22,612 bases of DNA from a virus, in the IMG/VR virus record IMGVR_UViG_3300001450_000351, positions 1-22,612 of that record; one strand, 5' to 3'. Of this stretch, positions 904 to 18,862 are shown one piece after another. The notes beneath the pieces are model-generated. The model ran no database searches. It was not told the DNA's origin and worked only from the letters and a program-made list of their open reading frames with translations. Position 1 is the stretch's first letter, and every line of letters starts with the position of its first letter. Made by a program: the position numbers and the translations under genes.

Positions 904-911
904 TAAATAGT
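904..911 (-). promoter_or_regulatory. Candidate late promoter motif ACTATTTA before tape measure gene
   Basis: The coding-strand 8-mer ACTATTTA lies 19 nt upstream of the tape measure ATG and immediately behind a hairpin terminator. The same oriented 8-mer occurs in five other intergenic spaces of the window. A promoter role is inferred from position only. Confidence 0.5.
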
Positions 912-914
912 GAC

Positions 915-943
915 AAAACAAAAAAGGCTGAATAAACAGCCTT
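915..943 (-). terminator. Rho-independent terminator after tail-assembly pair
   Basis: Read on the minus strand, AAGGCTG (943-937), a 6-nt TTTATT loop and CAGCCTT (930-924) form a perfect 7-bp stem followed by a T-rich tail (TTTTG TTTTG). It starts 3 nt after the stop codon of the 947 gene and precedes the ACTATTTA motif of the tape measure gene. Confidence 0.8.
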
Positions 944-946
944 ATA

Positions 947-1195
947 CTACCCTATCTTCGGTTGATTGAATTTGTTTAAAGTTTGGCTTTTCTTGCCGCC
1001 TTTCGACGATTCTTCTATTGCCTTCTTTTCGTCTTCAAGTTGCTTCACTAATCTCTCAACAAACCATTTTCTTAAACCTACAGGAAGATTATACGCTTCC
1101 GTTAGACTCCACCCGCCTGAATATTGCAAAAAGAAAAATTGTTCATAAACATTTTGCATATACTCATCGGTCAGGCCAAAAAAAGTCCGCACCAA
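947..1195 (-). CDS. Small tail-assembly partner protein (gp51-like or frameshift C-terminus)
   Basis: This frame overlaps the end of the gp26-like gene and stays open to a stop at 947. The conserved-looking part is an aromatic helical domain (DEYMQNVYEQFFFLQYSGGW, then EAYNLPVGLRKWFVERL) with a Lys-rich tail. Short proteins of this type follow gp26-like genes in T4-related phages. Two expression routes fit. One is independent initiation at TTG 1195 or GTG 1192, 6 or 9 nt after a GGAGG at 1206-1202 inside the upstream gene. The other is a +1 or -2 ribosomal frameshift on the T7 run at 1184-1178, giving a fused protein of about 356-357 residues. The first ATG in this frame (at 1153) lies too far inside the domain to be attractive. 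Its place between tube and tape measure is where tail assembly chaperones usually lie. The start is uncertain. Confidence 0.65.
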   Translation of the reverse strand: MVRTFFGLTDEYMQNVYEQFFFLQYSGGWSLTEAYNLPVGLRKWFVERLVKQLEDEKKAIEESSKGGKKSQTLNKFNQPKIG

Positions 1196-2018
1196 GCGGA
1201 ACCTCCATTGGCTCCTCAAAGCCGCAAGAACTGCACTCAAAATCTTGTGTTAAGTCGATATTTGGATTAACAAGTTTATATGCCAATCTTAAATGACGTG
1301 AATCCTTCGATGGAAGGTTTTGTGCAACATACCTTCTAGTCTCAATTCTATCGTCACCGTTGGCTGCAACCAGCATGGTCATTAGCTGGCGGGTGACTGC
1401 CTTTTCCCCGGCTTTACTTTTCTTATCCTGCTCTAGATTGCTTAGATAAGTTTTTTCGTCACGACCGGTTAGAAGCCTAAACGTTGCCATTATCTTTGTC
1501 GCCGGAAGTTCTACATCAAAGGTACTATCTTCATTTCTGGCAATATCAATTGCTGATGTATCCTCTCCACTATAAACATTGCTTTCTTCTAAATCAAAAG
1601 CAAATTCAACTTTAGTTTGGCATGCCGGACAAACAACCTTTGTTTCATATCGACTACCGTAACTGGCTGCTCGCAATGCAATAACAATTGCATTTCTGTC
1701 TCCAACCAAAAGGGAATTAGGATCAATTGATTTATCGACAATAACATTTGCAATAACCCTATCGATAGCAATACCTTTCTTTAAAAGAACCTTCGAAGTT
1801 AAGATATCCTCTTCTTTTGCCGTCATGTGCTTTATTTCTAACACATCCTTATTATACAAAGGGTGATTTGCAGGATAATATGCGCCCTTTGATGGTAAAT
1901 CTACAAAGTCAGTAGGCACGACAAAAGAAAATGCCCCTGCTTGTTGCGTTGGACTCGATGGTGGCATAGCATTCGATTGTCTATGCCCGCCCATACGGTC
2001 ACTATTTTTTCTACTCAA
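1164..2018 (-). CDS. gp26-like baseplate hub / tail assembly protein with zinc ribbon
   Basis: This 284-aa protein resembles the T4 base plate protein family (gp26-like). The N-terminal ~30 residues are polar and look disordered. The motif FVDLPSKGAYYPANHPLY (38-55) and a following helical region (MTAKEEDILTS) are the family signature I recognise. Two CxxC knuckles, C130/C133 and C262/C265, are placed to form a zinc ribbon whose halves are about 130 residues apart. The start is TTG at 2018, supported by a GAGG 6 nt upstream; the next ATG (1994) has no good ribosome binding site. The gene lies 17 nt after the tube gene and overlaps the next gene in another frame near its 3' end. By position and family it acts in hub or tail-tube assembly, perhaps as a chaperone rather than a virion part; that last point is inference. 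Confidence 0.7.
   Translation of the reverse strand: MSRKNSDRMGGHRQSNAMPPSSPTQQAGAFSFVVPTDFVDLPSKGAYYPANHPLYNKDVLEIKHMTAKEEDILTSKVLLKKGIAIDRVIANVIVDKSIDPNSLLVGDRNAIVIALRAASYGSRYETKVVCPACQTKVEFAFDLEESNVYSGEDTSAIDIARNEDSTFDVELPATKIMATFRLLTGRDEKTYLSNLEQDKKSKAGEKAVTRQLMTMLVAANGDDRIETRRYVAQNLPSKDSRHLRLAYKLVNPNIDLTQDFECSSCGFEEPMEVPLGADFFWPDR
1178..1184 (-). other. Run of seven T: candidate +1/-2 frameshift site
   Basis: In the gp26-like frame the coding strand reads GAC TTT TTT TGG CCT GAC CGA TGA. The downstream partner is in the +1 (equivalently -2) frame: ACT TTT TTT GGC CTG. Skipping one T, or re-reading two, at this homopolymer joins residue F280 to the partner domain four codons before the TGA stop. 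The run also simply encodes Phe-Phe-Trp, so it may be fixed by protein sequence rather than by frameshifting. Confidence 0.4.
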
Positions 2019-2035
2019 TTCTCACCTCTCAAAAA

Positions 2036-2623
2036 TTAACTTGTGGCTTTATAGCTGACTTCGCTGCCCATTCCTTCATTGTAGGTAGCCCAATCATATC
2101 TGATAGTCATGCTATATTCGGTCAAATCCTCTGAACCATAATCTAGAGTTCCAAAATTAACTTCGCTAATGAAAGAGTTGTTTAACGTCCAAGATTCCTG
2201 AACATTTCCTTCATCATCCAATTGCTGACAAAGCACCTCGCCCAATCCACCAACCGCTTTTGTTTTAGAGATTGTCTGGAATTGAGAAGCATCAGTTGGC
2301 ACCACATATCCACTTTCATTCAGAATTTTCGTTAATGCGAAAGCGACACCTTTCTCTCCGCCGGGATCAACCATGGTGATGCTGATATCATTCCAAGTTA
2401 CTCTGCCGGGGAATTTAAACGTATGGTTTAAATAATTATGAGTTGTCTCACCTAGAGTATAAGTAGGCTTATCAGCAGTCTTAGCCCAGAAAACAACGTT
2501 TGTGCCCAAATCCGAACCAATCGCAGTATCACTGAAAGCGCCAACAGTTATCTTAAACCTAAATGCTCTTTTAGGGTTTGTGACCCCCGAGCCATTGTAA
2601 TCTGTAGTCCAAAAAGTGGCCAT
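2036..2623 (-). CDS. gp19: Tail tube protein (T4 gp19-like)
   Basis: This 195-aa protein is slightly longer than T4 gp19 (163 aa). It shows the tube-protein pattern: N-terminal FRFKITVG strand, KPTYTLGETTHNYLNHTFKF (the segment matching the tube family's lipid/hub-facing loop), WNDISITMVDPGG, and a C-terminal TEYSMTIRYDWATY strand. Tube subunits stack as hexameric rings inside the sheath and conduct DNA. The ATG at 2623 is preceded by AGGAG with a 10-nt spacer. It follows the sheath gene directly, as gp18-gp19 do in T4. A variant of the recurring motif, ACTATATA, lies 25 nt upstream of the ATG, so this gene may also have its own late start. Confidence 0.9.
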   Translation of the reverse strand: MATFWTTDYNGSGVTNPKRAFRFKITVGAFSDTAIGSDLGTNVVFWAKTADKPTYTLGETTHNYLNHTFKFPGRVTWNDISITMVDPGGEKGVAFALTKILNESGYVVPTDASQFQTISKTKAVGGLGEVLCQQLDDEGNVQESWTLNNSFISEVNFGTLDYGSEDLTEYSMTIRYDWATYNEGMGSEVSYKATS

Positions 2624-2648
2624 GTTAAATAATCTCCTGTACTGTTAT

Positions 2649-2656
2649 TATATAGT
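2649..2656 (-). promoter_or_regulatory. Variant late promoter motif (ACTATATA) before tube gene
   Basis: It differs from ACTATTTA at one position and lies 25 nt before the tube ATG, matching the usual 19-25 nt distance of the other copies. It is in the 47-nt space after the sheath stop; no terminator hairpin is visible there. Confidence 0.35.
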
Positions 2657-2670
2657 TGACGATTTTATTT

Positions 2671-5600
2671 TTAATCATCGAAAGAAGCCCCACTTGATGC
2701 AATAACAAAGTCAATTGCGATATATTCAATGGCTCTTGCTGGTTTAACCATAATTTTAGCGTAGAGAATATTTTGATCAATTAGATCTGGGGTAGTGGTT
2801 GTGGAGTCCAAGATTAATTTGTAATCTGTGATACCAAGTCTTGTCTGAACACTCGCAAGAAGCGGTCTAATAAGTGCTCTAAAATTGTTCCAAGTCGCTT
2901 CAACATTTTGCTCAAACAGAACCTGTGTAGAGAGGATAGAAATCTGCTTCTTCAAGAAGATAACAAGCCTTCTGACATTAATTCTGTCAAGTGCTGATGG
3001 ACGCTCCTGCAAAGTCTTCTGTCCGAAGACAACAATTCCTTCAGATGGGAACGAGGCGATTGGGTTGATGCGAGCCTCATAAAGAGTGTCACGATCCTTA
3101 GAGCTTAAGCGTTCACTAACCTGTGTAATTGGAATTCCAGCAGCGCCGTCTGTCAAACCACCTCTGTTAAAGCCGGCTGGAGCAAACCAAATTTCGGAGG
3201 TACGCTCTGAGGATGCCAAAACACCCATCATGGCAACTGTTGGTGGAATCCAGACTAACTGACTGGTATTCGCATCGACCGTCTTAACCCATGGGTAGAA
3301 TGTTGCACCGTAACTGGAGTCAACTCTACGCAGCTTAAGAGCATTTGCCGCTGCAATTGGAGTTGTTCCAATTCTACTAGTTTTGTCAGCATAATATTGT
3401 TCGTGAGAAGGTCTATAAACATCCGGAAGATCAATTAATGCCAGAGCATCTGCTCTTTCTGCGCAGGTTTCAATCATGAGAGAAGTTAATGCCGTATTCG
3501 TCAAGCCAGGAATGGATAACAAGTTCATATTAATATATTCCGGATCCGAAACAGTTTGAATCGCCCTTGTATATGTGTGGAAAGCGTAACTATCATCTTC
3601 TGTGCTAGTGGAGGTCATGACTCCGTTATATAGCGGATCTGGTTTTGTTATATCAAATCCATCGAATCCACCCCAGAATGGAGCAGTAAACTTATTGATA
3701 TCTGCGTCGAGAAGTGCAGTATAGCCGCTGACTGCGGAAACACTTTCATTTGAAGTTCTAGAGGCAGAGAGATAAGTATAAGTGCTGCCGGTAATGGTCA
3801 AATTATCCATCGTGAATATGTAAGAATAGCCACTTATTCCTGTAATCGCTGTTGATGTTGGATCAGATGGCACGTTGTTTGTGTTGCCCAATCCTGCATA
3901 AAGCAATCTGTGTGTATCAAATATTCCAGCTTGTGGGGTGGTAGCGGTTGTTTGCCTAGTTGTATCGATACCAAAGTATGCTTTAGTCTGGTCGGACATA
4001 ACATTATCGGTTCCCTTATAGCGCAATCTAGCCGATGGGAAATTAATTGAGCAAGACAATGATATACCGTATGACGAGGATATTAACAAAGTGTGCCCAA
4101 CTGCACCGTGGCCATCACCGGCCATGGCACTTCCTGTCCCCGGCATGGCGGAACCGGTTCCAACTCTAAGAAATGATGCGGAGACAGCCATTTCAAATTT
4201 ATTCGGCTGGCTGGCTGGACCCGTTTCGTATATTTCGATGTCTTTAAACTTTGGAGGACCATAATATCCGAATGGTAAGAGGACTGGGTCTGTTGCGCCG
4301 GCTTCGACATCTGCATTCATATCAATTCTGATATATTTAGAACGATTATCATAATCTCCGTATTCCTTCAATGCCTTCTTTGTGGTATCCCATTCTTGAT
4401 ATTTGTCGCCAATTAATTTTGCAACATAATTTGGCGATGATGGATCCAAGTTACAATTATCAAATCTTTCCAATACTTCTACAGCCGAATCAGTGTCTGT
4501 AATTTTACGAATAATAACCGAGAAGGAACCATATTCGTTTGTAGTTGTAGTTGTTTGCTTAATATTAGCGATAGACACTTTGGCATTTTTATGTAACCAA
4601 GAGCCATGTCCCCGACCAATCAATCTAAATAATTTTTTAGTGGTAGAATAGGGATTAAAACTGTTACTTGAACCAAGATCTTGGCCAATAAACCATCCCG
4701 CGATTGCCTCTTGAGAAGGTGTCGATTTCATATTGTGTGGGCCGAGAGTGGTTGCAGATCCGCTAGCGATGGGGAGCATAAAGCCAACAAGCCTGCCGGA
4801 AGTTAATACAGCATCACGAGCTTCTTGCTCAAAAGTCTCTCCAAGCCAATAATCCTCATATGAGTCTGATGGGAAAAAACTACCTTGTGGAGAAATCAAT
4901 TGTGGGTTCGTATTAAGAACCTTTCTTATATAATATTCATCAGAATCTTCATCCATGCCAATTAAAAATTTCTTTTCGCCATTGACAGCACCACTTATAA
5001 GGATCGCAAATCTTCCACTGGTATCGCTCTCAACAAGAACAGAGGTGCCTTTTACTTGGTCGCCCGTGCCGAACGAGAGCGTTCGGCTCCCCGCTAAAGA
5101 GCCAGAAAGTCCCGCAGAACCAGAGCCAACATATATAATAGCTGCTAATTGAGCAGCGCCAGTGCGATCAAGCTCATGCGCAGGCCCCGCAGGAAGGCGG
5201 GTTCCAGCAACGAGGTTTCCGCTAGAAGAGGATTTCGCAATCCAAAGGCCAAATGCGCCACCAGCAGTTACGCCGCGAACTGGATTAGTAGCAGTACCAG
5301 TACTGGTCACAGATCTCCAGCCTGCTGCTGCAGCACCACCTGCCGCAGAGCCAACAGAGGTTTGCTGCCCTAAAAGACGGATATACGTCAATGGCGCGAC
5401 ATTTGATCTCAGGAACGCCTTGGATGCGTAAGTTCCATACATTGGAGACTGATAATTGCCCTCGCGATAGATATCTCCGCCACCGTTTCCGGGCACAGTA
5501 TCACCAAACATTTCTACAAACTCTGAATAAGATTGCACATTTATCGGCTGCATTGCTAGCCCGCGTGTGGCGCGGCCAATGACGACAGGCCCGATAGTAT

Positions 5601-5682
5601 CGGCTTGACGCGGGAGGAAGGAATTATCGATTTCATTAACGAAAACTCCAGGGGAAACAAATTTGAAATCACTGACTGACAT
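2671..5682 (-). CDS. gp18: Contractile tail sheath protein (T4 gp18-like), unusually long
   Basis: The N-terminus (FVSPGVFVNEID at 8-19, then GPVVIGRATRG and FVEMFGDT) and the C-terminal ~150 residues (INVRRLVIFLKKQI, FEQNVEATWNNFRALI, and a final strand in IEYIAIDFVI) are the conserved polymerising domains of contractile sheaths. The product is 1003 aa against 659 for T4 gp18. The extra length lies in the middle (about residues 110-780), rich in Gly/Ser/Thr/Ala and probably β-structured surface domains. The ATG at 5682 follows AAGGAG. Its 5' space holds an ACTATTTA motif 49 nt upstream, a 10-bp palindrome TTGTATACAA (5696-5705) next to the ribosome binding site and a small hairpin (5703-5716). 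It precedes the tube gene, as in T4. The fold and role are well supported; the function of the insert is unknown. Confidence 0.93.
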   Translation of the reverse strand: MSVSDFKFVSPGVFVNEIDNSFLPRQADTIGPVVIGRATRGLAMQPINVQSYSEFVEMFGDTVPGNGGGDIYREGNYQSPMYGTYASKAFLRSNVAPLTYIRLLGQQTSVGSAAGGAAAAGWRSVTSTGTATNPVRGVTAGGAFGLWIAKSSSSGNLVAGTRLPAGPAHELDRTGAAQLAAIIYVGSGSAGLSGSLAGSRTLSFGTGDQVKGTSVLVESDTSGRFAILISGAVNGEKKFLIGMDEDSDEYYIRKVLNTNPQLISPQGSFFPSDSYEDYWLGETFEQEARDAVLTSGRLVGFMLPIASGSATTLGPHNMKSTPSQEAIAGWFIGQDLGSSNSFNPYSTTKKLFRLIGRGHGSWLHKNAKVSIANIKQTTTTTNEYGSFSVIIRKITDTDSAVEVLERFDNCNLDPSSPNYVAKLIGDKYQEWDTTKKALKEYGDYDNRSKYIRIDMNADVEAGATDPVLLPFGYYGPPKFKDIEIYETGPASQPNKFEMAVSASFLRVGTGSAMPGTGSAMAGDGHGAVGHTLLISSSYGISLSCSINFPSARLRYKGTDNVMSDQTKAYFGIDTTRQTTATTPQAGIFDTHRLLYAGLGNTNNVPSDPTSTAITGISGYSYIFTMDNLTITGSTYTYLSASRTSNESVSAVSGYTALLDADINKFTAPFWGGFDGFDITKPDPLYNGVMTSTSTEDDSYAFHTYTRAIQTVSDPEYINMNLLSIPGLTNTALTSLMIETCAERADALALIDLPDVYRPSHEQYYADKTSRIGTTPIAAANALKLRRVDSSYGATFYPWVKTVDANTSQLVWIPPTVAMMGVLASSERTSEIWFAPAGFNRGGLTDGAAGIPITQVSERLSSKDRDTLYEARINPIASFPSEGIVVFGQKTLQERPSALDRINVRRLVIFLKKQISILSTQVLFEQNVEATWNNFRALIRPLLASVQTRLGITDYKLILDSTTTTPDLIDQNILYAKIMVKPARAIEYIAIDFVIASSGASFDD

Positions 5683-5731
5683 TATTCAAGGCTCCTTGTA
5701 TACAACATATTTGTTGCTTAATAATCATATT

Positions 5732-5739
5732 TAAATAGT
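5732..5739 (-). promoter_or_regulatory. Candidate late promoter motif ACTATTTA before sheath gene
   Basis: An exact ACTATTTA on the coding strand, 49 nt upstream of the sheath ATG, lies in the 87-nt space after the gp15-like gene. No terminator hairpin precedes it, so it would add to read-through transcription. Confidence 0.5.
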
Positions 5740-5769
5740 TGTTTGGTACACGAAAGGTATTTTTTCAAT

Positions 5770-7135: not shown

Positions 7136-7143
7136 TTATTGTA

Positions 7144-8418
7144 TTATCCTACAAATATTGGTAAAGGCGACTGCTTGAGAGCCTGCGCTGCGGCTTCTGT
7201 AACTTCTGCATCGATTTTAGCCAACTCCTTATAATTGATTCTGTCGATAATCTCCATTAATTTATCTTTAAGGGCCTGTTGCTCTTCTTTGGCCTGCGAT
7301 AACAACTCTGAGTGGTTCAAGGTCACACTCTCGCCAGGAATTGGCATTGTTGTAAACTTGCCACGAATTTGACCTAGCATTTCCTTGCATAACGCTAGTG
7401 CAAATTTGCGAATCCACTGTTTACCAATGGCATTGATATTCTCATATGGTAAATTATCGAACGGTAGCGTGTTAAAGTTATTGATGCCTTTAACTCCGTC
7501 ATCATATCTCGCATTAGACTCCCAGGCATCTCCTTGATCAACATAAAATTGCAGCCAAATACGATCTTGCACCCCATCAAAGCCGTAATTCCCAGGAGTT
7601 GGAAATAGTCGCAACATATTGTCTCTTATCTCATAAGAATAGTGTGAAGTTCTTGTATAAATTGAATCCTCGTACATTATTGCTTGTAATTTATTCTGCC
7701 ATGTTGGAATAACCTCAAAGGTAGAATCATCTGCGAATTGGCCATACGTTGAATAGTTGCCAACGACTCCCACTCCACCATAATATCCATAAAAACGCCA
7801 CATTGCCCTGGGAGACTTATAAAACACTCTGGTTATAATTACTCTTTTGTTTCCTACTGCGTCGGCATAATCAACAGCGGTACCACCATCATCTAAACCT
7901 GTGTGTGAAGCACCAGAAATAATAGTCTGGAGATCATAATCTTGCTTATTAACAGTTGGCGCGAAAGAGGCGGAGTAAATAGGCGTTGTTCCGCCGAATC
8001 CTGCAGCAGTTGCAACAGCATCCCCGATTCTTCTAGCATATTGAAACTGAAACCTTGGAAATGCCAAATTAACATTTTCAGGTCCAGTTATTCTTTCACC
8101 TTTGTGATCAAAGGTACCGGTTGTTTGCCCCAAAACGTCTGATAATATATTTTCACTTTGATGCAGATTAACAATGTAAGAATATTCTAGCACTGCTTCT
8201 TCGTAAGCCGCGTATACATTCGAAGGAGTCAATTCAATATCGACGACATCTCCACCAAGTTTTTTGTAAACATAGTTAACTTGGGTAGAGGCACCGGTTA
8301 AGAATTCTAACGATCCTGTATACATGCCATATGGCACTGCTGCAGCCACATCTGCTGCTGTTCCAGTGGAGGTTAAAATAACTGTGCTTGTTTGTGATAC
8401 CGGGGTAATTTCTGGCAT
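7144..8418 (-). CDS. gp13: Neck protein (T4 gp13-like), extended
   Basis: This is a 424-aa product; T4 gp13 is 309. Two blocks recall gp13: an N-terminal helix set with ELTPSNVYAAYEEAVLEYSY (about 62-81, compare the gp13 segment with DDQLTDCVDDSMQYMSEYHY), and a C-terminal block beginning QWIRKFALALCKEMLGQIRG at 334, then MPIPGESVTLN (compare RWLKQYATALIKKQWG, MQLPGGVTLNG), ending in a coiled coil. Between them lies an aromatic-rich insertion (RFYGYYGGVGVVGNYSTYG) probably exposed on the neck. gp13 sits at the portal-side neck ring. The ATG at 8418 has AGGA about 10 nt upstream and is preferred over a TTG two codons earlier. It is first of the gp13-14-15 run, and gp16/gp17 (terminase) are absent from this spot. 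Confidence 0.72.
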   Translation of the reverse strand: MPEITPVSQTSTVILTSTGTAADVAAAVPYGMYTGSLEFLTGASTQVNYVYKKLGGDVVDIELTPSNVYAAYEEAVLEYSYIVNLHQSENILSDVLGQTTGTFDHKGERITGPENVNLAFPRFQFQYARRIGDAVATAAGFGGTTPIYSASFAPTVNKQDYDLQTIISGASHTGLDDGGTAVDYADAVGNKRVIITRVFYKSPRAMWRFYGYYGGVGVVGNYSTYGQFADDSTFEVIPTWQNKLQAIMYEDSIYTRTSHYSYEIRDNMLRLFPTPGNYGFDGVQDRIWLQFYVDQGDAWESNARYDDGVKGINNFNTLPFDNLPYENINAIGKQWIRKFALALCKEMLGQIRGKFTTMPIPGESVTLNHSELLSQAKEEQQALKDKLMEIIDRINYKELAKIDAEVTEAAAQALKQSPLPIFVG

Positions 8419-8475
8419 TGACAAGGATTCCTATATGTAGATTATGCTTGGGTTAAGCAGATTATAAATTAGATA

Positions 8476-8841: not shown

Positions 8842-8864
8842 GACTTAATATCCTCCGTTTGTTA

Positions 8865-8872
8865 TAAATAGT
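8865..8872 (-). promoter_or_regulatory. Candidate late promoter motif ACTATTTA before 121-aa gene
   Basis: An exact ACTATTTA (continuing TAAC) on the coding strand lies 23 nt before ATG 8841 and 30 nt after a terminator stem. On the opposite strand it reads TATAAATA, the T4 late box, but pointing away from the genes. Confidence 0.55.
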
Positions 8873-8902
8873 GCCTCATCGCCAGTTTCGTAACTTATAA
8901 AT

Positions 8903-8933
8903 AAAAAAACTCCCCACCTAGAAGATGGGGAGT
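8903..8933 (-). terminator. Rho-independent terminator after 47-aa gene
   Basis: On the minus strand ACTCCCCA (8933-8926) pairs perfectly with TGGGGAGT (8916-8909) across a 9-nt loop, followed by an unbroken run of T (8909-8903). It lies 23 nt after the stop of the 47-aa gene. Confidence 0.88.
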
Positions 8934-8956
8934 CAATAAATGAGTGCTTTATTGTT

Positions 8957-9100: not shown

Positions 9101-9112
9101 TTATTATACCCC

Positions 9113-9896: not shown

Positions 9897-9904
9897 TAAA
9901 TAGT
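9897..9904 (-). promoter_or_regulatory. Candidate late promoter motif ACTATTTA after capsid terminator
   Basis: An exact ACTATTTA on the coding strand lies 12 nt after the T-tail of the capsid-gene terminator. It would restart transcription for the 218-aa and 47-aa genes. Confidence 0.5.
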
Positions 9905-9916: not shown

Positions 9917-9946
9917 AAAAGCCCCCCTCATTAAAGTGAGGGGGGC
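9917..9946 (-). terminator. Strong rho-independent terminator after major capsid gene
   Basis: On the minus strand GCCCCCCTCA (9946-9937) pairs perfectly over 10 bp with TGAGGGGGGC (9930-9921) across a 6-nt loop, followed by TTTTC. It lies 26 nt after the capsid stop codon and is the most stable hairpin in the window, as expected for a very highly transcribed unit. Confidence 0.9.
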
Positions 9947-9972: not shown

Positions 9973-11859
9973 TTAGGAAGAGTACTCTTCACCAAGCAGC
10001 CCGCGAACAATGACAAGGCCATACATATCTGGACGAACCATCTTCTTGGCATAGCGAGTCATCACGCCCTTGCGAGGCACGAAGTCTTCAGGTCCAAAGA
10101 TGGTTGGAGTCGTCTGGAGTGGGACGTATGGAGCATAGACATAGCCAGACTCAAGGAAAGAATTTCCTCTACGACCAACAAGAATGACGTTGCGCAAGAA
10201 GTATGGATCGACGATAACGTCGAACTTCTTGGAAAGCGCACCAATCTTAACAGCACCGACAGTGCCAGTCTCAGAGTCTGCAGTAACGCTAGCGCGGAAA
10301 CCAGCAGTGAACTCAAGGATGTTGGCAACTTCAGGAGAGCAAACTAAGAAGTTTGCGCCACCGCGAAGGGTCTTCCGGTGAATCTGAGCGGAAACATCGT
10401 TGACTGTCTCAACAAGAGTCTCATACCACTCAGAAACAGTACCAGTGAAGTCTGGCGCAGCCTGCTCAGCACCAAGCTCAACGCCGGTAGTCCGATTCAC
10501 GAAAAGTCCAGGTGAACGTGACCAGTAGTAAGTTGCGGCTTTAGCACCACTAACAAGGTCGGCAATGATCTCGCGATCAATCTCAAGAGCAATTTGCTCA
10601 GAGAGAATGCCTGTCAACTCGACCTCTGCATCAAGGTTGTGGTAAGCGTTAAGATCTTGTCCTAACTCTGGAGTCCACTTAGCCTTGAGCTTTTTGGTCT
10701 GAGCGGTAACAGCAATGCTGTCCACCTTGATGTCGATCTCTGGAATGTGCTCATTACCTTCAAGGCCCCATGTTGCAGCACCGACGACAGCACCGGTTGC
10801 TCCACCAGCGTCAAAATTGTCGCGAAGTGGGAACTGAGCGGTTCCAGCATCCAACGTCACACCGAGTGCAACAGGTGTTGTGGATTCGGTAAGCTGTGCT
10901 GGCTCATCGATGACGATGAAGAAGCGAACAGCTTCAGCTTGACTAGTCAAACCGGACTGATATGGTGCGCCACGAGTATCGCTAGAAACCAATCGTGTCA
11001 AGCGACGAACTTGACGCATGTTGGAGATAGCGGTGATGGTACCAATACCGGATGCATTATTCAGTTCGCCGCGAAGTCCGATTGTATCAGCCTGATCCAT
11101 GATGTCCTGAAGAACAAAAGCAGCCATATTATCATAGTCAGCTTCAGCAAAACATGTAGCCGTTTTAATGTCAAGAACAATAAGGCCATGAACGGTCAGA
11201 TCCAACAAGTCAGGATCGTAGTCAATGAGTGATTTCTGATCGTTGGTCATGTTAGCGCCACCGTCAAGCTTAACCAAAGCAGAAACAGCAGCATTGGCAA
11301 GACCGGTGGTCGCCTGAGCCATGGAGCCTGTTGGAGATGCATATGCATAACCACGAGCACCAGCGGTACGAGGACCACCAAAGTCCTCTGCGAAAGTACC
11401 GACCAGATCGACACCAGCAGTCACTTCGCTAGCAACTTCATCAGTACCATAAATGGACTTAGAATTTGGATTACCCATTCGGTTAGTCATGGAACCAGCG
11501 CCGGTTGCGCCAAGATCTGGTGAGTACACGAAATCAAGGAAGAAAATGAGGCCGGATGGCAAACTCATTGGTTGGACGCTAACAAGATCATTAGCGATAA
11601 GGCCGGCGAAAACACGACGGACAATTGGGAAAGCAACACTTGCGAAACCTTCAACGTCACCAGCGCTCATGCTGGAAGACTCACGGAGAAGTTCTTTAGC
11701 TTGATTCTCCAAAAGGCGCGCCATGGTGTTGCGCTTGCGGTCATCAGTAAGACCTTCGAGAAGACCGGTACGCTGCCACTTGTTAAGAAGTGCGGTTCCT
11801 TCGGCCTTCATATCACGCTTAATTACCCCTTCGGATAACCTTTCAATTATACTAGACAT
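9973..11859 (-). CDS. gp23: Major capsid protein precursor (T4 gp23-like)
   Basis: This 628-aa product is longer than T4 gp23 (521). Residues 74-110 (SVAFPIVRRVFAGLIANDLV, then VQPMSLPSGLIFFLDFVY) match the start of mature gp23 (VMGMVRRAIPNLIAFDI, VQPMNSPTGQVFALRAVYG). The C-terminal part has the expected VIVDPYFLRNVILVGRRG block. The N-terminal ~60 residues are helical and charged and end in ELLRE (E60), matching the LxE/IxE cleavage rule of gp21-type proteases, so a removable propeptide is likely. The ATG at 11859 has an ideal AGGAGG with 7-nt spacing. Codon use appears more GC-rich and regular than the neighbours, as for a very abundant protein. The scaffold gene precedes it by 21 nt and a strong terminator follows. 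Confidence 0.93.
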   Translation of the reverse strand: MSSIIERLSEGVIKRDMKAEGTALLNKWQRTGLLEGLTDDRKRNTMARLLENQAKELLRESSSMSAGDVEGFASVAFPIVRRVFAGLIANDLVSVQPMSLPSGLIFFLDFVYSPDLGATGAGSMTNRMGNPNSKSIYGTDEVASEVTAGVDLVGTFAEDFGGPRTAGARGYAYASPTGSMAQATTGLANAAVSALVKLDGGANMTNDQKSLIDYDPDLLDLTVHGLIVLDIKTATCFAEADYDNMAAFVLQDIMDQADTIGLRGELNNASGIGTITAISNMRQVRRLTRLVSSDTRGAPYQSGLTSQAEAVRFFIVIDEPAQLTESTTPVALGVTLDAGTAQFPLRDNFDAGGATGAVVGAATWGLEGNEHIPEIDIKVDSIAVTAQTKKLKAKWTPELGQDLNAYHNLDAEVELTGILSEQIALEIDREIIADLVSGAKAATYYWSRSPGLFVNRTTGVELGAEQAAPDFTGTVSEWYETLVETVNDVSAQIHRKTLRGGANFLVCSPEVANILEFTAGFRASVTADSETGTVGAVKIGALSKKFDVIVDPYFLRNVILVGRRGNSFLESGYVYAPYVPLQTTPTIFGPEDFVPRKGVMTRYAKKMVRPDMYGLVIVRGLLGEEYSS

Positions 11860-11880
11860 TTTAATACCTCCTAAATAATG

Positions 11881-13056
11881 TTATTTAATGCCTGCCAATT
11901 GCTTCATTCGCTCTGCGAATACATCATTTGGCTTTTTGGACTCTTTACGAGTCGCACGAATAAGTGAAGAAGGACGATTAATGGCCTCGCTCAGTGATTT
12001 TGGCCCACGACTATGTGTGGACTGCACTGTGCTTTGAAGCGTATTGTATATCGTTCTTGCTTCGTTTACCGAATCAGACTTTGAAATAGCTTCGACAATT
12101 TTATTTTTTTGTCGCTCATTCAAGGAGGTATCTCTTAATACACGATTGGTATACAGTAGACGAGCGTTAGAAAGGTTAATATCACTAAAACCTTCCTTTA
12201 GTTCGCCAATAACTTTTTTATACTTCTGAAGTTCACCGGTGAGGTTCTTGTTCTCAAAAACAAGCTCTTCCTGTGCCTTCTTTAAATCTTCTAATTCTTC
12301 CGCCATATCGGTAGATCTGCGGTGTGCTAGCTCTTTTTCCATTTCAAGCTTCATGCTATCGGAGGATCTGCCTGCCCAGCCAGATAAATCTGCGCCCATA
12401 TCAACACTAAGCTTTTCAAAAATAGCGTCAGTGAGAGAATCTAGGTCGATTTCCTCTTCCATGCCTTTCATTGCAGCCTCATCCTGCTCACCAGCAGCGG
12501 CAGCTTGTGCAGCGGCAGATTCGCCTTCGCCGGCACTATCATCGGCACCAGCCATTTCGCCGGAACCCTGTGGGTCTTCATCGGCTTCTTGAAGATTGTC
12601 TTCTTCATTCTCTACTATTTCGTAAAGCTCTTCTTCACCCTCTACTATTTCGTAAAGCTCTTCTTCATCCTCTTCAGCAAGCTTCTGAATATGTTCTTGT
12701 AAAGCGCCCAAATCCAACGTAACTGTTGCGGGCATGCCATCTGTTGGGGAATTTGCCAAGTTGCCACTGCCCTTCAAGGAATTTAAGCCATTTTGTGCGG
12801 CATATGGTATTTCTTCTATGTCTTCATCAAAGGCTTCGTCTGCACTGGGGGCATCAATATTCCCTGCTGGATCTTCAGGCGTCTCTTCAGGCATGTCTAA
12901 ATTGCCAAGAAGATCTTCCTCCTGTTCCAATAAAGTATTCAAAGTATTACGAACTTCGTTAGAATATTTATTAATAACGGCATGTTCAGCATTTTTTAAT
13001 GCAGCCTCTCTTAAGGCTTTTGCATCAATAATCGCTTCTTTAAGTAAGCTTGACAT
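11881..13056 (-). CDS. gp22: Prohead core scaffold protein (T4 gp22-like)
   Basis: This 391-aa, very acidic and helical protein lies directly upstream of the capsid gene, the place of gp22. The N-terminus MSSLLKEAIIDAKALREAAL recalls gp22 (MLKEQLIAEAQ). Residues ~45-210 are Glu/Asp/Ala/Ser-rich and low in complexity. They include two head-to-tail copies of EEELYEIVE(G/N) at 131-150. A coiled coil follows (about 235-290). The C-terminus (ARLLYTNRVLRDTSLNERQK, then RPSSLIRATRKES and a basic tail) is the probable capsid-contacting end. Scaffolds of this kind form the core around which gp23 assembles and are then degraded by the gp21 protease. The ATG at 13056 has AGGAG with 6-nt spacing; an ACTATTTA motif lies 22 nt upstream. 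Confidence 0.85.
   Translation of the reverse strand: MSSLLKEAIIDAKALREAALKNAEHAVINKYSNEVRNTLNTLLEQEEDLLGNLDMPEETPEDPAGNIDAPSADEAFDEDIEEIPYAAQNGLNSLKGSGNLANSPTDGMPATVTLDLGALQEHIQKLAEEDEEELYEIVEGEEELYEIVENEEDNLQEADEDPQGSGEMAGADDSAGEGESAAAQAAAAGEQDEAAMKGMEEEIDLDSLTDAIFEKLSVDMGADLSGWAGRSSDSMKLEMEKELAHRRSTDMAEELEDLKKAQEELVFENKNLTGELQKYKKVIGELKEGFSDINLSNARLLYTNRVLRDTSLNERQKNKIVEAISKSDSVNEARTIYNTLQSTVQSTHSRGPKSLSEAINRPSSLIRATRKESKKPNDVFAERMKQLAGIK
12607..12666 (-). repeat. Tandem 30-bp duplication in scaffold gene
   Basis: Two adjacent 30-bp units differ at very few positions and encode EEELYEIVEG and EEELYEIVEN (residues 131-150). Near-identity at the DNA level points to a recent in-frame slippage or unequal recombination event in the acidic domain. 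Confidence 0.85.
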
Positions 13057-13078
13057 AAATTTCTCCTAAATCACAAAA

Positions 13079-13086
13079 TAAATAGT
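13079..13086 (-). promoter_or_regulatory. Candidate late promoter motif ACTATTTA before scaffold-capsid unit
   Basis: An exact ACTATTTA on the coding strand lies 22 nt before the scaffold ATG. Together with the terminator at 9917-9946 it defines a two-gene scaffold plus capsid transcript. Confidence 0.55.
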
Positions 13087-13106
13087 ATTGTAAACAACAA
13101 AAGGAA

Positions 13107-13382
13107 CTAAGAGAGAGCAATCTCTAAGTTAAAGCAATCGGGCTGCGACGGATCAGAGTAGGTTTCCAAGCCGGTATATTTTATAAGATCTGTAATATCT
13201 GTTGACAAGTGTGACGATAATAAAGTTTCTGCCTCTGACAAAGTTTTTTCTTGTCCGTCAATTTCAATTCTTCCATCACCAGCATCAGTCTGCGACAAAA
13301 AACGTTGCAAGGTTCCATCACCTCCTGCTATTGTTCCAATACCAAAAATTTTCACAAAATTAATTTTAAGTTCAACTATCAT
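13107..13382 (-). CDS. 91-aa protein of unknown function after fibre cassette
   Basis: This short acidic protein begins MIVELKINFVKIFGIGTIAG and contains a helical middle (LSEAETLLSSHLSTDITDLI). No family is recognised. The ATG at 13382 lies 3 nt after the stop of the preceding gene with no obvious Shine-Dalgarno sequence, so translation is probably coupled. It is the last gene before the scaffold-capsid promoter motif. The frame is intact and fills the space exactly. A chaperone or assembly factor for the fibre genes is one possibility by position, with no direct support. Confidence 0.62.
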   Translation of the reverse strand: MIVELKINFVKIFGIGTIAGGDGTLQRFLSQTDAGDGRIEIDGQEKTLSEAETLLSSHLSTDITDLIKYTGLETYSDPSQPDCFNLEIALS

Positions 13383-13385
13383 AAT

Positions 13386-14255: not shown

Positions 14256-14256
14256 T

Positions 14257-15096
14257 TTATTTAATCCTCGCTCTAAATATACCAGCAAATGTGCATGCAT
14301 CACCCCCGGTAGCGAAATTTCCGGCAGCAAGAAAGACATACAATTTGTGATTTAGCGGTATTGCATCTTTAGTATTTTTACTCTTCTCCTGAAGATTTTC
14401 ACCGCCGCAATCTGTACCGGGAGTGTTCGACAGAGACGCTGCATAATAATAGTGTACGTCTGGGATTCCTTCATTGTCGAAGATGAGAGAATTTGCAATT
14501 ATTTTATTTCGAAAACCACGACATCCATCGTCAGTTCCGCGATTTGCATTTGTACTAGCAAAGCCCAAATTTGTATTTCCATGTTCTAGATCAGTCTCCA
14601 CTGATTCGTTCGAACCATTACCCATTTTCCAGGCTAGCCCAGTATTTACCACATCACTAGAGTCGCGGCCGCTCTTACCATACATCATTGGGGCTGAGCC
14701 GGCAGCCGCCCAACACCAACCAAAAACAACAAGCGGCCCACCGGAATTTGTCGCAGTTACCAGATCGGATTCTAAAGCGCCAGAACAATCCATATCTAGG
14801 GCAATGCTTGGCGCGTGATAGCCTTTAAATCCTGTATCCCAAAATAAATAATTTGCGCACTCATCTATCGAGGTAGTAGCTGTTGATGTTGATGCACCGA
14901 TGGTTATTTTAATATATTGATTACCTGAGCCATCGGTCGATGCACTTTGCGCAAAACTTACTGTAGCATCATCAGCGACACCACCCGAAAGATACATAGC
15001 ATTGTCAACATTCAATATAAGAGGTTCTGATTCTGCCCTTAAATAAGCAACACCTTCTGTATAATATAATTCTGAGCCTTGTTTATTATTAATCAT
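14257..15096 (-). CDS. Putative fibre-tip or decoration protein, paralogue of next-downstream gene
   Basis: This 279-aa β-rich protein has several Cys residues (for example C80, C104) and a Tyr-rich late segment (PDVHYYYAASLS). It shares the FWDTG motif and the C-terminal ending with the 289-aa gene that follows, so the pair arose by duplication and diverged strongly. It begins at ATG 15096, overlapping the fibre stop as TAATG, with AGGGA upstream, so translation is coupled to the 1088-aa fibre. A trimeric distal knob or lectin-like binding domain would fit, but no known lectin signature is visible. Confidence 0.75.
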   Translation of the reverse strand: MINNKQGSELYYTEGVAYLRAESEPLILNVDNAMYLSGGVADDATVSFAQSASTDGSGNQYIKITIGASTSTATTSIDECANYLFWDTGFKGYHAPSIALDMDCSGALESDLVTATNSGGPLVVFGWCWAAAGSAPMMYGKSGRDSSDVVNTGLAWKMGNGSNESVETDLEHGNTNLGFASTNANRGTDDGCRGFRNKIIANSLIFDNEGIPDVHYYYAASLSNTPGTDCGGENLQEKSKNTKDAIPLNHKLYVFLAAGNFATGGDACTFAGIFRARIK

Positions 15097-18000
15097 TAGC
15101 TAGTCCCTATAATAAACCAATTAATCCCATTGCTTACACAGGTTACAGAGCCTGAATTGGAAGTTATCTTCACTAAGCTTGCACCATCGATAGTCTCATT
15201 CGCTGAACCGGAAATTACTAAGTTAAATGATGACGCTGAGCCACTGACATCTTTAAAAATATAAGACTTTCCAGCGCCGGCAGCGGCTGCTAGGGGCAGC
15301 GTTCCAGTTATAACGGCACCGGTCAAGTCACAGAAGAGCAAATATTCATTGTTGGCGGCTGTGAAGTTTGCAGTCTTGACCGATGTTGCTAGCGAGATCC
15401 CGCCGGCGATATTAATGCCAGCAGATGCTGTCAATTGACCAGAGAAAGTATTTACGCCACTAAACGTATTATTATCGCCGGTAATGTCGCCACCACCAGA
15501 TGATGCAGTGAGCACTAATTTGCCATCTGAGTTCATGCCCACATAGCTGCCAGGACCACCTATTGCGCCACTAGCAATCGTGACCGGATCAAACAGTATG
15601 CCACTACCTGAAATTTCGATGCCGCCTTGTGAGCCTGAGATTATTAAAGTATTTCGACCGTTTTCGTCGTATTCTATAGAGGAGTCAGATCCATTGCCAA
15701 AAACAATCTTTCTATCGTCATATAGATGAATATTGCCGTTTGGAACATTCAGCGTACCATTAGCCACAGTGACAGAAACCGAGCCATCAGCGGCATCACC
15801 TTGAAGGGTAAATGCTTCTGTTGCTGTTCCATCATATTCGGCAATTGTAAATTTAATTCTTCCCCGTTCTCCACCAGAGGTTGATTTTTTAATTTCGCCA
15901 TCAATCTGGCCATATACTGTTGCATTGCCAGCAGCATCATGAGAAGAAAACACAATACGACCAATAGTATCATCTTCCGTTGGCGACGAACTAGTTTTAT
16001 TAAATATTAATTGACCGGGATGTTGATCAGCGTTTTCGTTCTGAATATATATTCTGGGACGAGTTGACTGTGCTGTTTTAAAAATCACATTATCACTCAA
16101 CACCGCAATTCCGGAAATAGAGCCAGAGATTATTAGTTGATTATCTCCATCTTCATCATACTCTATGTGAGCATCTGAATCTGTACCAAAGAACAGCTTC
16201 TCATCGTCGATAACGGTTAGATCGCCGCTACTGTCGTTAAAGGTTAATGAGGCTACACCACCGAAGGCTCCGCCATTATTGTATTGTATCTGTGTATCAG
16301 ATCCCCCGGGGGTACCTCCTCCCGAAGATGCGGTCAAAACTAACTTGCCGTCTGAATTAATGCCAACATAACTGCCGGGGCCACCAATCGACCCACTAGC
16401 AACTGTGGCCGGATCAAAGAGTACAGAGCTTCCTGATATCTCGATACCGCCTTGGGAGCCAGAGATTATCAGGGTGTTTCTTCCGTCTTCATCATATTCG
16501 ATGCTAGAGTCTGAGTTGGTACCAAAGATGAGTTTCTTATTATCAATAACTGTTAAGTGGCCGCCACTGTCATCAAAAGTAAGACTAGCGACACCACCAA
16601 AAGCGCCACCATTATTATATTGCACTTGAGTGTCAGAACCACCGGGCGTTCCGCCTCCCGAAGAAGCAGTCAAAACTAACTTACCGTTTGTATTGATCCC
16701 TAGATAGCTGCCTGGACCTCCAATGGCACCACTGACAACTGTTCCCGGGTCGAAAAGAACGCCACTGCCAGATATTTCAACTCCCCCTTGAGAGCCAGAT
16801 ATAATCAGTGTGCTTCTTCCGTTCCCATCGTATTCTATAGAGGCATCAGAAGCATTACCGAAGATAACCTTTCTATCATCATGTAAGTGGATATCGCCAT
16901 TTGGAAGGTTTAACGTACCATTAGCCACAGTAACAGAAACCGTTCCATCAGCACTATCGCCTTGAAGTGTCAGTGCTTCTGTTAATGTGCCATCGTACTC
17001 AGCAACTTCAAATTTTATTCTTCCTCTTTCTCCACCGGATCCAGACTTTTTGATATCGCCCGAAAACCGTGCATAGGTTGTTGGGTTTCCGGCGGCATCA
17101 TATGACAAGAATTCCACTCGACCGATCATGTCGTCTTCTGCAGGAGAAGAACTGGTTTTGTGAAATATTAGCTTTCCTGGCTGATCATCTATATTTTCAT
17201 TTTGAATTACTATTCTAGGTTTCCCCGAAGTCGTAGATATAACTGTAAAATCGGTGCCATCAAAAGTTAAATTGGACTCTCCGGTGATCGTACTGCTATT
17301 AACAGCGGTCAATATTCTATTATCAGCAACATTACTATAAGTTGTAATAGGGGACATGCCCGTTAATTTAGCACCATCGCCGAAAAAAGCAGCACCAGAG
17401 ATATTTAATGAGCTAGAAAAATGATTAGAGGCAAAAACACCGGCTGTAGTGCCATTCGCCACTAGTGTTACGGTGTCACCAGAAATTGTGATTGGAGAAC
17501 CGCCAGAAATTCTACTAGCAGTTAATTCTGTAAATATTGCTGTGGAGCCAGTTATACCCAATGAAGCAGATATTTGTCCTATTACTTTAACTATACTTGG
17601 ACCGTTCAGCCATTGCAAATTGCTGCTAGCACTGATTGAACCAGCGCTATTGAATTGAATATTACTGTCGGATCCCGCTGCTTTTATATTTGTCAATCCT
17701 GTGCCGGCACCATAAAAAGCAGCACCAGAGATATTTAATGAACTAGAAACGTGCGTGGCATTAATGACGGTATTATAAGTATTTAAAGAAGAGCCTGTGA
17801 CGCCTTGTGAACCCGATATTTCCCCTACAACCGTTAAGGTCATCGTTGGATTCGAAACCCCAACACCCAATTTTGAGGCATAAATGAAGCTTGCACCCGG
17901 TGTACTGCTTACTGAGGCACTAAAAACTGTTGTAGCGGTTGCTGCGCCATCTGCGCTAGCTGAAGCAACAATAAAACTTCCTGTACGAACGTGTTGATCA

Positions 18001-18362
18001 TCGTTACTATCACCAAAATCAGTAGAACCACTAGAATAGATCCTTTGAATTGTGCTAACGGTATAACTACTAGCAGAAATATTGCCAGATACAACCAGCG
18101 TACCGGTTAATGTTAAAGTGGATTGGTCGGAATTAAATGTAAAGTTATCCGAACCAGATATATCGCCGGAAACCGGAGTGTTTCTTCTAAATTGTATGGA
18201 AAATTCCGGCCCTTCTGCTATGATTGCCGCGCTAGCGGTGATATTTGTAAGACCCGATCCGTCACCATGAAATTCCGAAGCGGAAACAAAACTCGAAGCA
18301 GAGATGGAATTAACCGCCACCACACCTTCAGTATTAACAAATGTCCAGTTAAAATTAGCCAT
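15096..18362 (-). CDS. Large modular fibre protein (tail or head fibre)
   Basis: This 1088-aa Gly/Ser/Thr/Ile-rich protein is built from repeats. The fibre motif FxGDGxGLTNI occurs at 31-41 and in variants at 216-226 and 326-336. The phrase GGSDTQVQYNNGGAFGG, common in phage and prophage fibres, occurs at about 574 and 686. An IEYD module recurs at 509, 621 and 733 with an exact 112-residue period, and again at 896. A 190-residue block (381-570) is repeated without gaps at 768-957. The C-terminal ~90 residues (EYLLFCDLTG, LPLAAAAGAGKSYIFKDVSG, GINWFIIGTS) resemble the closing domain of many phage fibres. The ATG at 18362 follows AAAGGA. It probably forms trimeric fibres; whether they attach to tail or capsid is not shown. 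Its location inside the head gene block leaves a head fibre possible. Confidence 0.85.
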   Translation of the reverse strand: MANFNWTFVNTEGVVAVNSISASSFVSASEFHGDGSGLTNITASAAIIAEGPEFSIQFRRNTPVSGDISGSDNFTFNSDQSTLTLTGTLVVSGNISASSYTVSTIQRIYSSGSTDFGDSNDDQHVRTGSFIVASASADGAATATTVFSASVSSTPGASFIYASKLGVGVSNPTMTLTVVGEISGSQGVTGSSLNTYNTVINATHVSSSLNISGAAFYGAGTGLTNIKAAGSDSNIQFNSAGSISASSNLQWLNGPSIVKVIGQISASLGITGSTAIFTELTASRISGGSPITISGDTVTLVANGTTAGVFASNHFSSSLNISGAAFFGDGAKLTGMSPITTYSNVADNRILTAVNSSTITGESNLTFDGTDFTVISTTSGKPRIVIQNENIDDQPGKLIFHKTSSSPAEDDMIGRVEFLSYDAAGNPTTYARFSGDIKKSGSGGERGRIKFEVAEYDGTLTEALTLQGDSADGTVSVTVANGTLNLPNGDIHLHDDRKVIFGNASDASIEYDGNGRSTLIISGSQGGVEISGSGVLFDPGTVVSGAIGGPGSYLGINTNGKLVLTASSGGGTPGGSDTQVQYNNGGAFGGVASLTFDDSGGHLTVIDNKKLIFGTNSDSSIEYDEDGRNTLIISGSQGGIEISGSSVLFDPATVASGSIGGPGSYVGINSDGKLVLTASSGGGTPGGSDTQIQYNNGGAFGGVASLTFNDSSGDLTVIDDEKLFFGTDSDAHIEYDEDGDNQLIISGSISGIAVLSDNVIFKTAQSTRPRIYIQNENADQHPGQLIFNKTSSSPTEDDTIGRIVFSSHDAAGNATVYGQIDGEIKKSTSGGERGRIKFTIAEYDGTATEAFTLQGDAADGSVSVTVANGTLNVPNGNIHLYDDRKIVFGNGSDSSIEYDENGRNTLIISGSQGGIEISGSGILFDPVTIASGAIGGPGSYVGMNSDGKLVLTASSGGGDITGDNNTFSGVNTFSGQLTASAGINIAGGISLATSVKTANFTAANNEYLLFCDLTGAVITGTLPLAAAAGAGKSYIFKDVSGSASSFNLVISGSANETIDGASLVKITSNSGSVTCVSNGINWFIIGTS
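15492..17222 (-). repeat. Internal duplications of fibre gene (190-aa block twice; 112-aa period)
   Basis: Codons 381-570 (17222-16653) and 768-957 (16061-15492) encode collinear 190-residue copies offset by exactly 387 residues; by hand count about 145 of 190 residues are identical. Between them a 112-residue unit repeats in tandem (IEYD at 509, 621, 733). Corresponding DNA differs at many third codon positions, so the copies are old or have been kept by selection rather than newly made. Confidence 0.88.
17384..17741 (-). repeat. 28-bp identical direct repeat in fibre gene
   Basis: The 28 bases at 17384-17411 recur exactly at 17714-17741 and encode part of SSLNISGAAF just before the GxGxGLTN motif. 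Such islands of identity in diverged modules are typical points of recombination between fibre genes. Confidence 0.8.
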
Positions 18363-18375
18363 TAACTATTTCCTT

Positions 18376-18834
18376 TTAAAAAGTGCTGCATGCGGCAAAA
18401 ACGTTAACCTCTGCTGGGGTACCATTAACAAAATACACCTTGTCTATTCCTACTATCTCATATCGTCGATATTCTCTATCACCTGGGACTTGGTTGGCTG
18501 GTGTGCGCGCAATATTACTAATGTCAATTGAAGCAGGATCGTTTGCAGTATTTTGCCCCTCGCCGCCGGCCTCGGACTCTGGTATTTCAAACCAACGTTG
18601 GAATGCGTGGCAATACCCATAAATAGTGACAGCAGCGGGGTCATCGGATGTGGTAGCATCCTCCACCAAAACATGAAGATATCTTTGGTTTTCAGTCGCG
18701 TAGCCGACTGTAGTTGCTGTAATCCCCACAAGATCATTGGTATTGGCGGCTACGACAACGGCGGTGCCGTTTGATCCACCCAGATTTTTTGGACCTCTGG
18801 TTCTTCCCCAACTAGATGCTTTATATGTACCCAT
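18376..18834 (-). CDS. 152-aa virion-like protein at start of fibre cassette, unknown
   Basis: This protein has a basic N-terminus (MGTYKASSWGRTRGPKNLGG), a β-rich middle (RYLHVLVEDATTS, AVTIYGYCHAFQRWFEIP) and a closing segment YRRYEIVGIDKVYFVNG. No family is recognised. The ATG at 18834 has GAGGGAG upstream, and an ACTATTTA motif lies 20 nt before it, directly at the stop of the bS21 gene. It is followed at 13 nt by the 1088-aa fibre. As first gene of the cassette it could be a fibre anchor or a capsid decoration protein; this is inferred from position and composition only. Confidence 0.72.
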   Translation of the reverse strand: MGTYKASSWGRTRGPKNLGGSNGTAVVVAANTNDLVGITATTVGYATENQRYLHVLVEDATTSDDPAAVTIYGYCHAFQRWFEIPESEAGGEGQNTANDPASIDISNIARTPANQVPGDREYRRYEIVGIDKVYFVNGTPAEVNVFAACSTF

Positions 18835-18854
18835 TGTTTCTCCCTCGTTTACAT

Positions 18855-18862
18855 TAAATAGT
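18855..18862 (-). promoter_or_regulatory. Candidate late promoter motif ACTATTTA before fibre cassette
   Basis: An exact ACTATTTA on the coding strand, whose first A is the last base of the bS21 stop codon, lies 20 nt before ATG 18834. It would start a transcript for the fibre cassette. Confidence 0.5.

Follow-up and report, generated by a model that had tools for sequence, protein, structure and literature searches.

ACTATTTA as a probable late-promoter core in an uncultured T4-related phage lineage

We analysed a stretch of viral DNA of 22,612 bases (record IMGVR_UViG_3300001450_000351, taken whole and called the window below), whose main genes are encoded on the minus strand and make up a structural module of the T4 superfamily. 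The 8-base word ACTATTTA, or A-C-T-A-[T>A>C]-T-T-A when its variants are included, is with high confidence the core of a phage-specific late promoter in an uncultured T4-related lineage. By sequence and register it is likely a diverged relative of the T4-superfamily late boxes. In it a reworded late box is paired, at part of the sites, with an upstream element that is absent from T4's. An earlier note on the window had proposed a phage-specific late promoter; the related sequences strongly support this proposal, with the function itself suggested by sequence patterns. The simplest model would be a T4-like late promoter with a changed reader: a -10-like core ACTATTTA would head late operons in one orientation, partly right after a terminator-like hairpin, and would be used late by a host RNA polymerase altered by the phage.

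Strand and position of the motif in the window and its relatives

The window carries eight copies of ACTATTTA on its minus (coding) strand and none on the plus strand. In 100 dinucleotide shuffles the mean was 1.11 copies with both strands summed (maximum 5), and no shuffle reached eight. Six of the eight copies fall in intergenic gaps, which amount to 979 of the 22,612 bases (4.3%; binomial p 1.7e-7), in line with the earlier remark that intergenic space is small. The positions given in the earlier note for six intergenic copies and one further copy with a mismatch (2649-2656) are exact throughout, and its count of two genic copies (18620 and 20787) and none on the opposite strand is borne out (8:0). 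As it also claimed, five of these seven intergenic copies lie 19-25 nucleotides (nt) before a start codon, namely 19, 23, 22, 20 and 25 nt; the other two lie at 49 and 127 nt. Among the nine gaps of at least 25 nt, six hold the exact word and three do not (2624-2670, 8425-8475 and 20532-20628). Taken by itself the window is suggestive only: its strand bias is matched by AAAAAATA (9:0) and GATGAAGA (9:1), and consequently the relatives have to decide the case.

For this comparison we used the best 80 of at least 599 related capsid stretches in viral_contigs (capsid identity 56-68%). Together with the window these loci contain 264 sense and 4 antisense copies of ACTATTTA; 217 of the 264 copies are intergenic, although the automatic gene caller leaves only 56 of 908 kb as intergenic DNA. 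Without the motif being supplied, the most strand-biased 8-mer over 383 gaps is again ACTATTTA (189:0), which outranks the Shine-Dalgarno words; the variants ACTAATTA (47:2) and ACTACTTA (32:1) show the same tendency. De novo expectation maximisation (EM) yields ACTANTTA, that is A-C-T-A-[T.69, A.18, C.11]-T-T-A, in 87% of the gaps. The earlier note had named strand-aware motif discovery and comparison over relatives' gaps as the proper check, and a lack of intergenic enrichment or orientation bias as the result that would speak against it; the check turned out favourably and the latter is contradicted by the counts above.

The motif is unevenly distributed over the genes. For genes with at least 140 nt upstream we searched ACTA[ACT]TTA within 130 nt of the start. 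The motif precedes the scaffold gene in all 53 loci and the sheath gene in all 46, the neck gene in 54 of 68 and the tube gene in 24 of 33. Elsewhere it is rare (capsid 2/73, protease 1/12, hub 0/29). As judged from these orthologues, this is the pattern that promoters at operon heads would give. For the window, where other 8-mers are equally strand-biased, the word might be explained by chance, by base composition or by a repeated DNA site used in packaging or replication. The relatives contradict this, both overall and in the gaps, as do the complete scores at the scaffold and sheath heads, and we regard it as negligible.

Register, upstream box and individual copies

To define the register we combined the window with 5 long records, 75 capsid loci and the 80 loci around a sigma-region-4 gene described below (161 sequences, 1.83 Mb). 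The pooled set contains 481 unique ACTA[ACT]TTA sites, of which 360 are intergenic and 126 of these have an upstream hairpin. Clustering at 70% flank identity left 274 non-redundant sites, including 167 hairpin-free ones. With the first A of the motif as index 0, a purine is found in 81% of the 274 sites at index 13 and at index 14. The 222 sites with a Shine-Dalgarno word before an ATG all have it beginning at index 11 or later, and the redundant set contains a single exception among 291, which begins at index 9. If +1 is assumed at index 13, the motif spans -13 to -6, which is the same as for the T4 late box. The two features suggest that the motif occupies about -13 to -6, with transcription starting some 6 nt past it.

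A second element becomes visible further upstream. At offset -16, TTT is present in 51% of the 167 hairpin-free sites, against at most 12% outside offsets -17 to -14. GG at offset -20 reaches 24% (at most 10% elsewhere) and the full word GGnnTTT at -20 reaches 16% (at most 2.4% elsewhere). The fixed register of TTT points to a box that some of the promoters have 12 nt before ACTATTTA, at approximately -33 to -26. We therefore propose a GGnnTTTW-like upstream element near -30 at about half of the hairpin-free sites. A terminator T-run as the origin of this box was rejected, since hairpin-free sites keep it. The 8-mer of the earlier note consequently stands as the core, but the signal appears to be more than an 8-mer.

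These data also bear on the idea that the motif acts in the RNA (ribosome loading, a cleavage site or a leader element of the mRNA) rather than as a promoter. Such a signal would be confined to the transcribed strand and close to the start codons that follow, as the motif is. It would be harder to reconcile with the rarity of the motif before operon-internal genes that have starts of their own (such as capsid), its absence from 37 gaps upstream of the sigma-region-4 gene, a partner box in fixed upstream register and copies located 49-127 nt from the start. Overall, we consider a function at the RNA level very unlikely.

All copies and genes of the window mentioned here are on the minus strand. 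The tail sheath gene (2671-5682) has its core at 5732-5739, 49 nt before the start at 5682, and the upstream box TACCTTTC at 5752-5759, 12 nt before this core with TTT in register. The core at 13079-13086 lies 22 nt before the scaffold-position gene (11881-13056, start 13056; without a family match of its own), which leads into the major capsid gene (9973-11859); its upstream box is TTCCTTTT at 13099-13106. The core at 9897-9904 is situated past a terminator-like hairpin, 127 nt before a gene of 218 amino acids (aa; start 9769), and here the box GGGCTTTT (9917-9924) overlaps the terminator-like T-run. No in-register TTT box accompanies the cores at 904-911 (19 nt before a gene starting at 884 with a sub-threshold tape-measure match), 8865-8872 (23 nt before a 121-aa gene, start 8841) and 18855-18862 (20 nt before a 152-aa gene, start 18834). 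The one-mismatch core ACTATATA at 2649-2656 lies 25 nt before the tail tube gene (2036-2623, start 2623). The module further includes the hub-type protein (1164-2018), the head-tail adaptor (7144-8424) and the prohead protease (19519-20127).

Two exact copies lie inside genes. The copy at 18620-18627, within the 152-aa gene and 257 nt before a 1088-aa gene, has no upstream box. The copy at 20787-20794, within a 122-aa gene, comes with the box TTACTTTC (20807-20814) and is a candidate in-gene promoter before the protease gene. Of 11 sequences compared (window included), 10 have it exact and in one codon register, and it may for this reason be real rather than background. Its codons are CTA TTT, and CTA elsewhere in those genes makes up 15 of 156 Leu codons; its weight is limited by shared ancestry and a conserved Glu-Leu-Phe. 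An in-gene promoter at this site is possible on these comparisons. In long relatives, too, ACTATTTA lies within a small gene just ahead of the prohead protease region (G001:26638, G002:70503, G003:18021, G004:20464 and G007:15223). The window also has a ribosomal protein S21-like gene (18862-19125, minus strand; PF01165, expectation value (E) 2e-9); in Microcystis phage Mel-JY01 an S21-like gene lies near the prohead protease, and the long record G001 has a relative of this S21-like gene.

By capsid protein the nearest named phages include Flavobacterium phage immuto, Mel-JY01 and Rhodothermus phage RM378, whose alignments cover 55-70% of the protein at 44-48% identity. None of 2,494 matching records reached 80% query coverage by capsid. 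One scan of genome_contigs for a host gave 10 matches, all partial and short.

A sigma-region-4 gene and candidate readers

We read two long records in full (G001, 95.5 kb, and G002, 72.5 kb). Each encodes a protein of 79-87 aa with a sigma-70 region 4 above the Pfam cut-off (PF04545, E 2.1e-10 and 2.6e-9), which places it in the Sigma70_r4 family; against the PDB its profile finds RpoH and RpoD chains (best E 3.4e-5). Five cysteines are invariant in 43 aligned sequences. Among 50,697 phage records there was one partial match (38% of the protein, E 0.01). The gene (for example L102:1396-1635(+), L103:1474-1737(-) and those in L211-L290) runs into the end of a 108-aa gene; in 76 of 78 loci that have both, the shared stretch is the same 4 bases. 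Structure models are of modest confidence (predicted local distance difference test 70 for the sigma-4 protein and 77 for its partner). The sigma-4 model weakly matches SigF, SigA region 4 on -35 DNA (1ku7) and a -35-binding domain (E ~0.8). The partner is all-helical in its model, with a hydrophobic and acidic C-terminus; no structural match was found for this model, and in a comparison with both gp55 sets the protein resembles neither.

The motif regularly follows this gene. We took the best 80 of 284 sigma-4 relatives in viral_contigs: ACTA[TAC]TTA occurs within 190 nt past the sigma-4 gene in all 77 loci with enough DNA. The 374 kb upstream of the gene contain a single exact ACTATTTA, whereas the 334 kb downstream contain 92; of these, 59 lie in the first 300 nt and the other 33 are spread over the following 311 kb. 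Counts over de-duplicated gaps, made with one rule for all sets, give ACTATTTA 158:0 and TTGACA 7:9 in 321 gaps of the capsid loci and window. Upstream of sigma-4 the values are 0:0 and 15:3 (37 gaps), downstream beyond 300 nt 9:1 and 44:0 (67 gaps) and in G001 80-95.5 kb 0:0 and 7:1 (14 gaps). No gap of the downstream set combines TTGACA with ACTA[ACT]TTA. These counts indicate that the lineage has a host-type gap class and a ACTATTTA class, the latter dominating the structural genes. A host sigma70 promoter (TTGACA-N17-TATAAT) is not what is found at the motif: the core is ACTATTTA and TTGACA has no sense bias in capsid-locus gaps.

Searches for known readers gave the following. On T4 as positive control gp55, gp45 and MotA were recovered, and sigma region 2 weakly. 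MotA_activ had no above-cut-off match in 7 long fragments of the lineage (T4 control E 3e-63; the record G026 gave a sub-threshold E of 0.002). The gp45 profile also missed immuto and Mel-JY01, although a clamp loader is annotated in the latter. In relatives with T4-type structural genes a bacterial-type DNA polymerase III alpha subunit is encoded (L108:7024-10464(+) and L111:2121-5540(-)), which indicates a replisome unlike T4's; G001 and G002 carry such a subunit, and G001 also a gp32-like protein. A synteny candidate for gp55 (G001 75291-75968) was rejected as a ClpP-like protease, also seen in G002 (14547-15173) and Mel-JY01 (L098:7744-8427); further unknowns turned out to be an amidase, a GH25 lysozyme and a dUTPase. 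The unannotated immuto gp118 (L095:28174-28872) and its clear relative in Mel-JY01 (L098:8764-9534) may be distant gp55 homologues, on weak and mixed evidence: against phrog_234 gp118 gives E 0.008 per genome and E 0.5 as a single protein, and its profile comparison gives E 0.005 at a probability of 7%. The T4/cyanophage gp55 profile found 0 of 12 immuto-type sequences. A search of 12 long lineage records for the gp118 family, run with no positive control, found nothing.

A number of observations weigh against the promoter interpretation. The automatic gene caller puts 47 of the 264 ACTATTTA copies inside genes, and since the loci share ancestry, their counts cannot be treated as independent. 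Of the 8 exact copies in the window, 4 have the upstream box in register. Relaxed to ACTA[ACT]TTA, the motif has 15 occurrences upstream of sigma-4, none of them in the 37 gaps there. Downstream, 9 of 67 gaps carry ACTATTTA among many TTGACA gaps, so the classes are interspersed in that region. TATAAT lacks a sense bias in capsid-locus gaps (45:56) and upstream of sigma-4 (4:4), the downstream set giving 37:20, and a two-mismatch TTGACA/TATAAT scan separates the regions only partly (26 intergenic hits in G001, 11 in G002). The controls are mixed. The EM of the same pipeline recovers TATAAATA from T4's late region, but this word is not clearly strand-biased in the T4 gaps (12 sense, 6 antisense); CTAAATA is found 13:0 in 22 kb of the late region of Aeh1, yet its 9 gaps did not give a clean result by EM. 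Finally, neither gp55 (phrog_234) nor sigma region 2 (PF04542) matched in the records G001-G012 or in 15 long sigma-4 records, all fragments, and the gp45 clamp (PF09116) matched in none of 7 long fragments (T4 control E 4e-53). Because the records are fragments, absence of gp55 and gp45 is not provable.

The lone sigma-region-4 protein would be the best candidate reader of the upstream box. We tentatively propose, as a possibility that may well prove wrong, a two-part promoter read by a split sigma, in which the cysteine-rich sigma-4 protein, with its translationally coupled 108-aa partner, reads the -30 box and replaces gp55, gp33 and gp45. Such a change would accompany a different replisome, given DNA polymerase III alpha and an unrecognised gp45 in G001 and G002. 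In T4, according to the available parts of the papers cited here and below, gp55 and gp33 are termed a split sigma (PMC2988020); recognition of the box is the task of gp55, and the gp45 clamp is brought in by gp33 (PMC2988020, PMC7892883), which holds the beta-flap position with no recognition of DNA sequence (PMC2988020).

Two other readers come into consideration, and both share the promoter reading rather than being alternatives to it. The first is the classical T4 system, in which ACTATTTA would be read by gp55 and gp33 in diverged form, together with the clamp; their genes would have been missed owing to fragmentary records or too much divergence, and the sigma-4 protein would have another role. 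The inferred register and kinship shared with the Aeh1 box, the gp55-like candidate in immuto and Mel-JY01 and the fragmentary state of all lineage records used are consistent with this. The negative searches for gp55, sigma region 2 and gp45, the upstream box that T4 late promoters lack and the weakness of the gp55-like candidate itself argue the other way, and we hold it possible without favouring it. The second is sigma appropriation as in T4 middle transcription, where host sigma70 would read the core and a phage activator at -30 would replace the contacts of sigma region 4. The position of the upstream box, near that of T4's Mot box (GCTT at -30 to -27; PMC1524935), the presence of the lone sigma-4 protein with its coupled partner and the unrecognised gp55 in the records searched would suit it. 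Against it, MotA_activ stayed below cut-off in the 7 fragments, the core differs from TATAAT, the genes served are structural and not middle, and TTT is missing at about half of the hairpin-free sites. This makes sigma appropriation unlikely in our view.

Comparison with known promoters

Returning to the late-promoter reading, the nearest systems are those of the T4 superfamily. The T4 late promoter consists of an 8-bp element at -13 to -6 (PMC1524935), and the available parts of two papers describe no -35 element (PMC2988020) and no conservation at -35 (PMC7892883). Likeness with the lineage lies in an 8-bp -10-like element in the same inferred register, sense-oriented before late structural operons with homologous genes (sheath, tube, scaffold position). 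Differences concern 4 of the 8 letters of TATAAATA, the upstream box, and gp55 and gp45, which are unrecognised in the lineage fragments searched. Neither TATAAATA, which occurs once on the window's coding strand, nor the late box NATAAATA of cyanophage S-PM2 (PMC2984593) is the consensus here: two methods give ACTA[T/A/C]TTA. Also, T4-type promoters have no upstream element, whereas the lineage has TTT and GG at fixed offsets. As these two features differ, we do not claim membership of the gp55-dependent class.

The Aeh1 late box is closer. Its consensus has a/gC at -13/-12 in place of T4's TA (PMC2988020), and its CTAAATA starts at -12 (PMC1524935). The resulting (A/G)CTAAATA shares orientation, inferred register and AC at -13/-12 with the lineage; ACTAATTA matches ACTAAATA in 7 of 8 letters and ACTATTTA in 6 of 8. 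It differs in AA at -9/-8, where the lineage has TT (or AT, CT), and in that Aeh1 is annotated with gp55 and gp45. The earlier note had considered a diverged or inverted relative of the T4 box. Divergence is upheld, whereas inversion was set aside: the fit to Aeh1's box in the same orientation needs none.

Other promoter types fit less well. In the T4 middle promoter a MotA box is combined with TATAAT; the core here is not TATAAT, and the 7 fragments have no above-cut-off MotA_activ. Bacteroidota-type promoters have the form TTTG/TAnnTTTG. This type, raised by the kinship with a Flavobacterium phage, was dropped: TTTTGA continues only part of the sites, and other lineage gaps instead carry TTGACA and strong Shine-Dalgarno words. 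The minimal sigma factors with one helix-turn-helix (HTH) domain in group 2 jumbo phages, likened here by their description in the available part of PMC7824862, also are phage-encoded lone sigma HTH domains; the lineage's protein differs in having 79-87 aa, five cysteines and coupling to a 108-aa partner.

Among the papers listed by searches of the open-licence literature without preprints, as judged from titles and abstract openings, no description of ACTATTTA or CTATTTA as a promoter was found. The motif offers a rule by which late operons can be called from sequence in a lineage common in public viral contigs (at least 599 capsid-related stretches and 284 sigma-4 relatives). Rules of this sort, found de novo, are needed because late-promoter methods for cyanomyophages reportedly failed on pelagimyophages (PMC7029224, available part). 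It also points to a phage group whose sigma-4 substitute may read DNA, which makes the evolution of T4's split sigma testable.

Among the nearest named phages, late-region gaps of immuto and Mel-JY01 contain TATTTAT in sense (12:3 in 18 gaps and 7:2 in 10 gaps, respectively). Outside the late region second motif classes are seen, TTC.TATATTTA and AGTTGCTT in immuto (L094, L095) and TTCGTATATTTG and TTGCATA in Mel-JY01 (L096-L098); regions of RM378, LR756508 and LR756511 gave no clear motif. With the lineage both phages share the sense TATTTA core in late-region gaps, and they differ from it by no fixed AC before the core, no sigma-region-4 match and a weak gp55-like candidate. The series of T4-superfamily late boxes is thereby extended to TATAAATA, (A/G)CTAAATA, ACTATTTA and nTATTTAT.

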